Shown here: in pieces, positions 23,745 through 58,480 of the stretch
Layout: the number at the start of each line of letters is the position of its first letter
How positions within the stretch are numbered: position 1 is the stretch's first letter
NCBI GenBank assembly: GCA_016219645.1
Contig: JACRLR010000004.1
Location: 1 to 64,000, forward strand
Direction of reading: 5' to 3'
Source of the DNA: Nitrospirota bacterium
GTDB taxonomy: Bacteria; Nitrospirota; Nitrospiria; Nitrospirales; Nitrospiraceae
Length of the DNA: 64,000 bases
Made by a program: the position numbers and the translations under genes
Notes under the pieces: generated by a model
Database searches by the model: none
What the model was told of the DNA's origin: nothing
The model's input: the letters and a program-made list of their open reading frames with translations, nothing else

Positions 23745-24090
23745 CTGGATGAGCCCCCACTGCGCGCGTCCACTCGTGGTACTCCCCATTCCCATACCAA
23801 CCAAGCAAGGGAGTGAGGAGCTTTTGACTGCGGCCGTCGAGCGAGGCTCATTCACTTCTCGAAACTTCTCCTTAAAAGGGAGTGGCCAAGGCTGCCCTTT
23901 ACTGCGCGCATCGAACGAGCACTTTCTGAATGTGCGCGTTCTGCGAGCAAGAAGGGCACCTGGCCGCTCCCTTCTCATCCTTCGGAGGGCGCGCGCTCCG
24001 GGAGCAAAGAAAACTCCTCACTCCCTTGCGCCACACTTTCTGAGACCGCGCGTGGCGCGAGCACAGGGGACTCACCAGGCCATCCCTCTC
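23745..24090. repeat. triply nested palindromic element (reverse orientation)
   Basis: Three palindromes lie inside one another. The innermost has arms at about 23877-23899 (AAGGGAGTGGCCAAGGC...) and 23952-23973. Around it are the arms GCAAGGGAGTGAGGAGC (from 23805) and CTCCTCACTCCCTTGC (to 24029), with halves of the conserved core next to them. The outermost pair joins about 23752-23775 (GATGAGCCCCCACTGCGCGC) to about 24045-24088. All are reverse-oriented relative to the copies at 31413 and 58190. The element fills the gap between two convergent genes. Confidence 0.7.
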
Positions 24091-24094
24091 CCTG

Positions 24095-24580
24095 CTAGCT
24101 CTCGATCTTTGACGGTTCATGATGAAACGCGGCAATTTTCGGGCGAACGAGATCGGCAAAGTCCTTGTACCGTAGTTTGATCGCGCCGACATAGGTCCCG
24201 GCTTCAAACACAATGGACTCGTCTTCCGTCAGGAGCTGATCCACATACACTTCTATGCCATAGAGATTGCCGAATGGTGGCATCGCTCCCACTTGGCAAT
24301 CGGGGAACAGGTTCGCGCATTCGGCTTCTGTCGCTAACCGGACGTCGCGGGCTTCCAATACATCCCGCAATCGTTTCAGATCCACGCGCCAGGTGGAAGG
24401 CAACACGGTCATGATGAAATAGTTGTCGGCTTTCACGACGACGACTTTGGCGACGAGGTCTCCCGACACATCCAGCGTCTGGGCCACATCGTGCGCGGTA
24501 TAGGCCTTCGCGTGGCTGACCAGTTCATAGGGAATTTTGTTCGCGTCCAGATAACTCTGGAGTCGTTTCAGGATCGGCAT
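24095..24580 (-). CDS. YbaK/ProX-type aminoacyl-tRNA deacylase
   Basis: A 161-aa protein of the YbaK/EbsC fold, which hydrolyses mischarged aminoacyl-tRNA in trans. Family features are YTAHDVAQTLDVSGDLVAKVVVVKAD near the N-terminus (divided by a loop), the FPDCQVGAMPPFG block and the C-terminal FEAGTYVGAIKLRYKDFADLV. The conserved Lys is in AKVVVVK. The ATG at 24580 is preceded by GGGAGGTGG; a GTG two codons upstream lies inside this site. It is convergent with the nested repeat and the previous gene. Confidence 0.88.
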   Translation of the reverse strand: MPILKRLQSYLDANKIPYELVSHAKAYTAHDVAQTLDVSGDLVAKVVVVKADNYFIMTVLPSTWRVDLKRLRDVLEARDVRLATEAECANLFPDCQVGAMPPFGNLYGIEVYVDQLLTEDESIVFEAGTYVGAIKLRYKDFADLVRPKIAAFHHEPSKIES

Positions 24581-30324: not shown

Positions 30325-30328
30325 GAGT

Positions 30329-30424
30329 GGAACGACACTCGTGGTGATCCTGTGCTCCCGGAGCGCGCACGATCGGAATGTGCTCGCTCGACGGCCGCAG
30401 TAGGACCACCACGAGTGCCATTCC
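30329..30424. repeat. variable-arm palindromic element (CACTCGTGG type)
   Basis: Complementary 22-nt arms (30329-30350, containing CACTCGTGGTGATCC; 30403-30424, containing GGACCACCACGAGTG) flank a 52-nt core. The core (30351-30402) matches the one at 58273-58324 without gaps at its ends (GCTCCCGGAGCGCGC and CTCGCTCGACGGCCGCAGT), while the arms are unrelated. It begins 5 bp after the pump stop codon. Confidence 0.75.
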
Positions 30425-30461
30425 ACAATGGGAATGGCGAGCGAGCTTGGAGGGGGGAGAG

Positions 30462-30555
30462 GAGGGCAGTCTGGTCGTCCTCCTGCTCGCGGAACGCGCA
30501 CGATCGGAATGTGCTCGTTCGACGCGCGCAATCGAGGATCGACCAGGCCACCCTC
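30462..30555. repeat. variable-arm palindromic element (CTGGTCGTCCTC type)
   Basis: Left arm 30462-30482 (GGGCAGTCTGGTCGTCCTC) and right arm 30534-30555 (GAGGATCGACCAGGCCACC) are complementary with a few mismatches. The 51-nt core between them folds on itself: GAACGCGCAC pairs with GTGCTCGTTC, and outside that CTGCTCGCG pairs with CGCGCGCAG across a small bulge. It is followed by AGCGAGCTTGGAGG, a short motif that recurs near most copies. Confidence 0.75.
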
Positions 30556-30700
30556 CCAGAAGAGAAACAAGCGAGCTTGGAGGAGAAGAAGCTAAAGCAA
30601 GCTTGAGATGAGGGAGCGGCTGAGGTCTGGCTCCGCTGTACATCTGTTGAGCTTCACCATTTGATGGAGTATCGTTCCGGCGAGAAATCGGAGGCCTTCT

Positions 30701-31046: not shown

Positions 31047-31409
31047 ATGAAGCGAAGCCGGATGCTGAAGATGGCAATGGTGGGGCTTGTGAGCGGCCTT
31101 CTGTTAGGAACTGTGGTGCAAGGACGAGCCGAACCCAAGCTGCAAAACGGCGATGTGGCGCGGGGCAAGGCTCTGTTTGTCAGGCACTGCACCGGTTGTC
31201 ATGGGCCTGAGGGCGGAGGGGATGGGTACAGCTTTCTTCGTGGACCGGATCCGGCTAATCTCACATCGCCATCGACCAGAAAGACATCCGATGCTGACCT
31301 GCTTAAGGCCATCCATGACGGCAAACCGAATATGCCGCCTTGGAAGACCCGTCTCTCGGAGAAAGAGAGCCGGGACGTGCTCGCCTATGTACGGACCCTC
31401 GCGAGGTGA
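31047..31409 (+). CDS. secreted class I c-type cytochrome
   Basis: A 120-aa monoheme cytochrome c. The signal peptide covers residues about 1-28. The heme motif CTGCH lies at about residues 48-52 (FVRHCTGCHGPEGGG), and the axial Met is probably in KPNMPPWK near residue 94. It is a small periplasmic or membrane-attached electron carrier; its partner is not identifiable. The ATG at 31047 follows GGGAGGAG. A nested palindromic repeat begins directly behind the stop codon. Confidence 0.9.
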   Translation: MKRSRMLKMAMVGLVSGLLLGTVVQGRAEPKLQNGDVARGKALFVRHCTGCHGPEGGGDGYSFLRGPDPANLTSPSTRKTSDADLLKAIHDGKPNMPPWKTRLSEKESRDVLAYVRTLAR

Positions 31410-31412
31410 AGG

Positions 31413-31765
31413 ATGGGCAGGGTGGCCTGGTTGTCCTCCTGCTCGCGGAACAGAGGAGGGGATGGAGCCTGATGATCTTCTGTGCTCGCGCAACGCGCGG
31501 CCTCAGAAGGGGAGGCGCAAGGGAGTAAGGAGCTTTCTTTGCTCCCGGAGCGCGCGCCCTCCGAAGGGCCTCGCTCGACGGCCGCAGTCAAAAGCTCCTC
31601 ACCCCCTTGCTTGGTTGGCATTGAAAGGGGGCAGGGAAACAAGTGGCCGCGCGCAGTGGAAGATCAATCAGCCCCCATCCCTAAGGAGATAACGAGCAAG
31701 CTTGGAGGGAGCATACATATCGTCCGATGCGCGCAATCGAGGATCGACCAGGCCACCCTGAAAAG
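31413..31765. repeat. triply nested palindromic element
   Basis: Outer arms are 31419-31438 (GGGTGGCCTGGTTGTCCTC) and 31739-31759 (GAGGATCGACCAGGCCACC). The outer core is split, and in the split lies a second unit with arms 31458-31479 (GGGGATGGAGCCTGATGATC) and 31660-31681 (GATCAATCAGCCCCCATCCC). Its core is again split by a third unit with arms starting at 31517 (GCAAGGGAGTAAGGAGC) and ending at 31610 (CTCCTCACCCCCTTGC). It begins about 10 bp after the cytochrome stop. The motif AACGAGCAAGCTTGGAGGGA is at 31691-31710. Confidence 0.75.
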
Positions 31766-31953
31766 AGAGCAGCACGCAAGCTTGGAAGGAGCATTATAGC
31801 GGTTGTTCGACAGGTATAAGGGGGGGGGGCTGTTGAGCCCATGACCCCTTCCTCGATTTCTGATAAGCTCGCCAGGCTTGTCATGGCGTTTGGCCTGCTC
31901 CGGCATACGAGGCTGAATTCACGGTGGAATCACAATCGGGAGGAGAGCTTCTT

Positions 31954-33249: not shown

Positions 33250-33500
33250 CCTAACAGGCTGCTTATAAAGTCCGCCAGCAGGGGGCGGATGGCCACGTGA
33301 GCTCCCTGTACTCGCGCAACGCGCCCGGGCTCGTCTGTCTGGTTGGCTGGTCTTTCTGGTCCGTCTGGTTCTTCCGGATGAATCTCCGGTCCGACCAACC
33401 AGATAGACGAGATAGACCAGATGAACCAGCATTCGTCGGACGCGCGCAGTGGAAAATCAATCAGCCCCCATCCCTAAAGAGATAACGAGCAAGCTTGGAA
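33250..33500. repeat. composite repeat: core element with TCTGGT palindrome at its apex
   Basis: It starts with AACAGGCTGCTTATAAAG, continues with ACTCGCGCAACGCGC (the left core half) at about 33310-33324 and then a TCTGGT-type palindrome at 33325-33430 (TCTGTCTGGTTGGCTGG ... ACCAGATAGACGAGATAG). Right after the palindrome come the right core half (GACGCGCGCAGTGG, 33438-33451), the arm AATCAATCAGCCCCCATCCC and AACGAGCAAGCTTGGAAGGA. So one repeat type occupies the apex of another. Confidence 0.7.
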
Positions 33501-58184: not shown

Positions 58185-58480
58185 GGGAAGGAGGGGATGG
58201 GACCTGATGATCTTCTGTGCTCGCGCAACGCGCGGTCGAAGAAGGAACGTCGCAAGGGCGTGAGGAGCTTTCTTTGCTCCCGGAGCGCGCGCCCTCAGAA
58301 GGGCCTCGCTCGACGGCCGCAGTCGAAAGCTCCTCACGCCCTTGCTTGGCTTGTATTGACATGGAGCAGGGAATACAAATGGACGCGCGCACTGGAAGAC
58401 CAATCAGCCCCCAGCCCTAGAGAGATTAGGGTCGCTCGAAGTGCGCAATGGGGAGCGCGCCAGCCGCCTCGCTAGATATA
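58185..58480. repeat. doubly nested palindromic element with perfect 21-bp arms
   Basis: Inner arms are 58252-58272 and 58325-58345, exact reverse complements over 21 bp (AAGGGCGTGAGGAGCTTTC is part of them), around a 52-nt core. The outer unit has arms at about 58194-58217 (GGGGATGGGACCTGATGATC) and 58398-58420 (AGACCAATCAGCCCCCAGCC) with its core halves next to them (GTGCTCGCGCAACGCGCGG; GGACGCGCGCACTGG). The element lies upstream of the reductase gene start. Confidence 0.75.

Follow-up and report, generated by a model that had tools for sequence, protein, structure and literature searches.

A three-level nest of hairpins downstream of a cytochrome c gene

The window analyzed here is a 64,000-nucleotide stretch of DNA from a Nitrospirota bacterium of the family Nitrospiraceae (genome G000). 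Between a cytochrome c gene (31047–31409) and a gene with an FGE-sulfatase domain, it carries three palindromic units at 31419–31759, each of which sits in the apex of the next, as an earlier note made from the sequence alone had proposed. No transposase is found among the six neighboring proteins scanned around the nest. We re-derived all three pairs of arms and place them within 1–2 bases of the coordinates in that note: the outer arms pair 31419–31439 with 31739–31759 and include a perfect 14/14 stretch (31418–31431/31747–31760), the middle arms pair 31458–31480 with 31659–31681, and the inner arms pair 31517–31536 with 31591–31610 at 90%. The fold of the 366-nt strand beats 100 of 100 dinucleotide shuffles both as RNA (z −6.05) and as DNA (z −4.06). 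The features of the nest, all on the + strand, are as follows.

31419–31439, +, outer unit, left arm, pairing with 31739–31759
31440–31451, +, outer unit, left core part (TGCTCGCGGAAC), broken before the apex by comparison with loci L034, L173, and L134
31452–31482, +, middle unit, leader and left arm (arm proper 31458–31480), with a junction after GGAAC like that at C16:263230
31483–31498, +, middle unit, left core half
31499–31510, +, middle unit, left side of the apex and loop (GGCCTCAGAAGG), the insertion point of the inner unit
31511–31539, +, inner unit, leader and left arm (arm proper 31517–31536)
31540–31586, +, inner unit, complete 47-nt core
31591–31610, +, inner unit, right arm
31611–31645, +, inner unit, 3′ tail, resembling the tail next to this inner unit at 58.3 kb and at locus L011
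31646–31657, +, middle unit, remnant of the right core half
31659–31681, +, middle unit, right arm, pairing with 31458–31480
31682–31720, +, middle unit, 3′ tail (contains AACGAGCAAGCTTGGAGGGAGCAT)
31721–31737, +, outer unit, right core part
31739–31759, +, outer unit, right arm
31772–31799, +, second tail-like copy, downstream of the outer unit

The earlier note had described the outer and middle cores as split at the apex. Insertion at the apex holds, but the outer core is not just split: by comparison with a single-level unit of a relative (L034), the middle unit occupies the place of a 20-nt apex that the outer unit has lost. The three-level nest is not unique, as comparable nests and single units lie elsewhere in the window.

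30327–30426, +, single-level unit adjoining the stop of an AcrB-type gene (the single unit at 30353)
30463–30557, +, single-level unit with arms of the outer unit's subfamily (the single unit at 30484)
23750–24100 (about 23.8–24.1 kb), −, another nest, with three left core halves 57 nt apart
58192–58400, +, another nest, with the same kind of inner unit inside the same kind of middle unit

The units form one family with a base-paired core

Each unit consists of an arm, a 47-nt core forming an imperfect hairpin of its own, and a second arm complementary to the first, with arms of about 25 nt and usually a 3′ tail of 25–45 nt. In the core, a 15-nt apex separates the left half (consensus TGCTCSCGSMRCGCGC) from the right half (TCGYTSGAYGSSCGCA), and the first stem pair is G-C or C-G. 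We searched an 840-kb sample of G000 (all of contigs C16, C10, and C4 plus the first 40 kb of C53; 23% of 3.65 Mb). Allowing up to one mismatch, we found 70 left and 83 right halves of the core, against none in the reversed sequence; allowing up to two, we found 82 left and 107 right halves. Scaled by proportion, the whole genome would hold a few hundred units. The core is exactly 47 nt long in 50 of 56 arm-matched pairs. The arms vary among subfamilies yet pair within a unit, with a median score of 15 (178 units) versus 6.5 when arms are swapped.

Across 87 distinct cores, the 16 proposed core pairs are standard in 93% of cells, and pairing falls to 21–56% when the partner is slid by 1–3 bases. 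Two-sided changes number 116, compared with a mean of 31.6 and a maximum of 46 in 500 shuffles, kinship among the sequences being left in. Because the motif was picked from these same data, we give the two-sided changes greater weight than the overall pairing percentage, and it is by them that the pairing of the core is supported. The strand of the units agrees with local GC skew in 23 of 35 cases, which is too weak an agreement to build on.

A 61-nt query finds matches in all 32 Nitrospira genomes (the window's own counted) and in 5 of 5 genomes from the family's other genera; the 24 genomes sampled in the order's other families give no match. Scanning named genomes for an exact pattern returned at least 120 stretches, and the 80 loci among the matches listed are all titled Nitrospira, Nitrospiraceae, Nitrospirae, or Nitrospirota. 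No description of the Nitrospira units turned up in the literature searched, in which subscription journals are mostly uncovered; in the accessible part of PMC12306157, N. moscoviensis is one table row.

Nesting follows a fixed geometry

We collected left core halves with no right half in place, here called open, from the G000 sample and the 80 named loci. Of the 75 obtained, 72 could be examined, and for 36 of these (one of them doubtful) an inner left half comes next on the same strand, no more than 95 nt away. A single one is followed by a half on the opposite strand, which matches poorly by eye and was judged to be chance; the remaining 35 have no subsequent inner unit of the family, some holding other palindromes or truncations. 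The spacing between outer and inner left halves is 53–62 nt, being 55 or 57 in 29 of the 36, and the usual left junction lies just past the loop (TCAGAAGG or similar). These nests represent eight named combinations of outer core and inner arm, plus two rows with unclassed arms (a doubtful outer half at L136 was dropped). Eight combinations in the same orientation are unlikely if they were independent events with free orientation, an independence that is weakened because nested composites may have spread as composites. The window's middle unit has a junction of another kind, in which the sequence breaks after GGAAC and resumes at CGTTCGA or CGTCCGA with the apex lost; this junction has a match at C16:263230, and its left side alone recurs at C16:312830 and C16:415700.

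Among closed units with enough flank, 23 of 159 have adjacent arms that match poorly, and the missing arm reappears past an insert in at most a few of them. As missing arms so rarely reappear beyond an insert, apex insertions far outnumber arm insertions within the reach of the search. Some units are hybrids whose left and right arms belong to different subfamilies (L184, L173, C4:51174, and C16:231516) and are probably products of recombination between cores. One 5.2-kb arm-matched pair, C16:226311–231549, was rejected, its first left half having its own closed 47-nt core.

Other palindromes occur in association with these units. A second palindromic family (stem GCAGGATGCTGAAAAAGTCCGCCAGC, often with 124–128 nt between its ends; G000 C16:101485, 242964, 291032, and others) bears several hairpin modules at its apex, units included, and shows six long spans between ends. 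A third palindrome, with TCTGGTTTG-like repeats, lies within unit cores, directly 3′ of the left half in the cases listed (window 33309–33448; C10:117070, L142, L181, and the uvrA site of G012). A fourth hairpin (about GGCACGTCTCGGCGTGCC) is found repeatedly, both in the second palindromic family and within the right half of unit cores (L129, L161, L175, L183, and the uvrA site of G028 and G030).

Orthologous sites differ by whole units

The earlier note had suggested looking for alleles that differ in their number of levels. We found such alleles at the cytochrome c site, at the 3′ end of uvrA, and in the pair L161/L176, in each case between species rather than between strains. At the cytochrome c site, G027, G017, G014, and G031 have no unit directly past the gene, G028/RSF11 and RSF6 have a single-level outer unit with a left flank as in the window, and the window has three levels. 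In G028 and RSF6, remains of another unit follow the outer unit, so these single-level alleles are not pristine and may derive by deletion from a nested state.

At uvrA, matches with E of 1e-45 or lower came from 26 of the 32 genus genomes; a script could read 24 of the 27 loci, one of them (G013) at the wrong place. The outer arms are common to G028 and G012, and the left arm is recognizably the same in G004 and G026. This outer unit holds one unit in G028, a different palindrome and half a unit in G012, and two further levels in G004; in G026 it is closed with a foreign right arm, a form that looks like a product of recombination between left halves. G000 and G005 share another uvrA unit, in which core pair 8–40 is G-C in one and A-T in the other, and in most other genomes read uvrA is not directly followed by a unit.

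Loci L161 and L176 (RSF6 and CG24A) differ by one 126-nt unit in the apical loop of a unit, between flanks that are 91.0% identical over 1569 nt and 95.7% over 2429 nt. TCAGAA stands on both sides of the insert and may be either a 6-nt target duplication or part of the element's tail. Among the pairs listed, this is the only clean filled/empty apex with close flanks. At a fourth site, L172 and L182 have two levels, L131 has three, and L127 has just a short arm-like scar. A synteny survey of G006 and G027 covered 13.9 kb of collinear sequence with four indels, one of which is the apex insertion known from L161/L176. Whole units thus appear and disappear at the tips of other units.

Insertion into the apical loop as the probable explanation of the nests

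The units are real and genus-wide, and we consider them best read as mobile hairpins that insert at hairpin tips. We put at roughly 0.78 the probability that the nested hairpins belong to one family of short non-coding mobile palindromes inserting preferentially in the apical loop of a resident copy. The family itself, its structure, and its fixed geometry are observed, and so is the fact that orthologous sites have or lack whole units, which supports the repeated insertion into an existing hairpin loop that the earlier note had envisaged. A new copy, oriented one way, would enter a resident copy's apical loop at a near-fixed point, and hairpins would accumulate within hairpins through successive insertions of this kind, after which recombination between the shared cores would yield hybrids and deletions. 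The apex may be targeted for being exposed or single-stranded in an extruded hairpin, the insertion would be performed by a sequence-specific and strand-specific enzyme, and a lack of SbcCD would let the long palindromes persist. More tentatively, the units might constitute a class of self-nesting hairpins that insert in one orientation through an enzyme of a type so far without a link to mobile DNA, perhaps a replication or recombination function of the cell itself, and that reach several levels for want of SbcCD.

If this account is right, it explains recurrent intergenic complexity in a major nitrifier genus and makes two questions testable: which enzyme picks a hairpin apex, and whether the absence of SbcCD allows nested palindromes to build up in a chromosome.

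Candidate mobilizers and competing explanations

A Y1/HUH transposase of the IS200/IS605 or RAYT kind, perhaps now lost from many lineages, might have moved the units as single-stranded DNA. Such enzymes could give one orientation, a fixed junction, bulged hairpins, and a tail resembling the target, and the units do show a single orientation, a left junction at a near-constant position, conserved bulges in their imperfect hairpins, and a tail whose end (NGAAG) resembles the target loop (TCAGAAGG). The earlier note had named Y1 or RAYT enzymes as candidate partners and had proposed a search for Y1 genes sharing end sequences with the units; neither idea is borne out. The only Y1_Tnp gene of G000 (L031:922–1901; C20:51681) is bounded by its own perfect 14-nt inverted repeat (GCAAAGTCAAGAAC), which is unrelated to the ends of the units, and has no unit beside it and no core half nearby except one chance hit with three mismatches. 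The Y1_Tnp profile has no match in 13 of the 31 other genus genomes, among them four listed as 99% complete (G001, G008, G017, and G020), yet all carry the core, and ten Y1 loci from relatives (L055–L064) show no core half within one mismatch. A genuine 6-nt target duplication would likewise be at odds with such an enzyme. No autonomous copy was apparent in a scan for distant arm-matched halves, among the 10 pairs listed. A past, since-lost enzyme may have been responsible, and we regard a Y1/HUH transposase as an unlikely mobilizer, although it fares best among the competing explanations.

We think it improbable that recombination among core repeats, or template switching between them, produced the nesting instead of mobile insertion. 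Many of the closed units with poorly matched adjacent arms carry arms of two subfamilies, and the G026 allele at uvrA resembles a product of this kind. Against it, L161 and L176 differ by one whole loop unit between otherwise collinear flanks, and the same uvrA outer unit holds inner units of different subfamilies.

A further proposal, that the units owe their retention chiefly to a function as structured RNA or mRNA 3′ ends, nesting being a by-product, would account for the strong covariation in the core and for the many units that begin only tens of bases from the 3′ end of a gene by rough ORF calls; 24 of 59 units fall inside ORFs by home-made calls, many of them probably spurious. Conservation of the hairpin is equally expected of a DNA target or a transposition substrate, the units do not keep their positions from species to species at the two sites followed, and a search of Rfam gave no match at gathering score and one chance hit only. 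We accordingly rate a primary RNA role as quite improbable.

Group II introns, other reverse transcriptases, and IS110-type elements are known to target hairpins or REPs, and REPs are described as IS110 targets in the accessible part of PMC1525189. The earlier note had likened the target preference to that of some group II introns, and a partner of this kind is not borne out by the genomes: the RVT_1 profile is found in 8 of 32 genus genomes and Transposase_20 in 18 of 32, and neither has a match in G000. G001 and G017, each listed as 99% complete, lack matches to Y1_Tnp, RVT_1, and Transposase_20 alike, yet carry units. Mobilization by these elements is therefore very unlikely.

SbcCD is found in only one genome of the genus

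The hairpin nuclease SbcCD normally attacks long palindromes, as established in Escherichia coli. The SbcD profile matches 3 of 61 genomes in a sample of the order versus 13 of 14 control genomes. Within the genus, SbcD occurs only in G017, where it adjoins the only convincing SbcC (C61:72652–76505), and SbcCD was not found in the other 31 of 32 genomes. Its absence suggests a permissive background for such palindromes. Two observations speak against a simple link: SbcD is missing across the order, including families that have no units, and G017 has, at first look, about as many core candidates (82) as other genomes. Capture of other hairpins in a break opened at the apex by SbcCD would explain why several unrelated palindromes share the apex habit, but it would leave the single orientation unexplained, and we reject it as largely refuted because SbcD and SbcC are absent from nearly all genomes of the genus.

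Comparison with known systems

The units resemble REP, BIME, and REPIN sequences, which occur as hundreds of short imperfect palindromes per bacterial genome; the units likewise are many and short, with an extragenic position that was roughly checked. REP-type sequences differ in having a GTAG tag and a RAYT partner, whereas the units are about 100 nt long with variable arms and apex nesting, show by eye no shared GTAG at the hairpin foot among the flanks listed, and have no Y1 transposase flanked by units in G000 or at the ten Y1 loci of relatives. For the CGTC-tagged REPs, too, no dedicated transposase is known according to the available part of PMC3733652, a paper whose main text contains neither "nested" nor "Nitrospira". 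On the reverse strand of the core, the units have a conserved C(G/A)TC next to the inner stem (positions 38–41), but it lies inside a longer stem. The CGTC-tagged REPs, as that part describes them, have 8–9 bp stems, AT pairs at stem positions 1–2, and a CCA-like tail; the consensus of the units has neither an AT stem start nor a CCA tail.

IS1397, IS621, and other insertion sequences target REPs, and so share with the units a preference for palindromic targets, but they are autonomous in the account accessible to us (PMC1525189), whereas the thing inserted here is a small non-coding hairpin. Ends shared with the Y1 element of G000, as expected of an IS200/IS605 derivative, were not found, and a group II intron would call for a reverse transcriptase, for which G000 has no RVT_1 match. 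A MITE would have terminal inverted repeats, a target duplication, and an autonomous parent; the arms of the units are inverted repeats that vary by subfamily, and one pair (L161/L176) has a possible 6-nt duplication.

The GC clusters of yeast mitochondrial DNA are likewise mobile GC-rich hairpins with structural constraint, merger, and shuffling; they differ in being 42 nt long with 2–3 nt duplications, and ordered nesting does not figure in the parts of PMC4478555 compared. Another likeness is to the organelle DNA of Volvox carteri, where, in the sections of PMC2670323 compared, palindromic repeats are nested in one another by an unknown mechanism and short, many-copy, intergenic hairpins build larger elements. 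Those repeats lie in eukaryotic organelle DNA and have TTTA/TAAA loops, and a fixed junction, a single orientation, and orthologous filled and empty sites do not appear in the same sections of PMC2670323. The Nitrospira units would be an example from bacteria, with filled and empty sites at orthologous positions, of hairpins that nest by insertion at the tip in one orientation.
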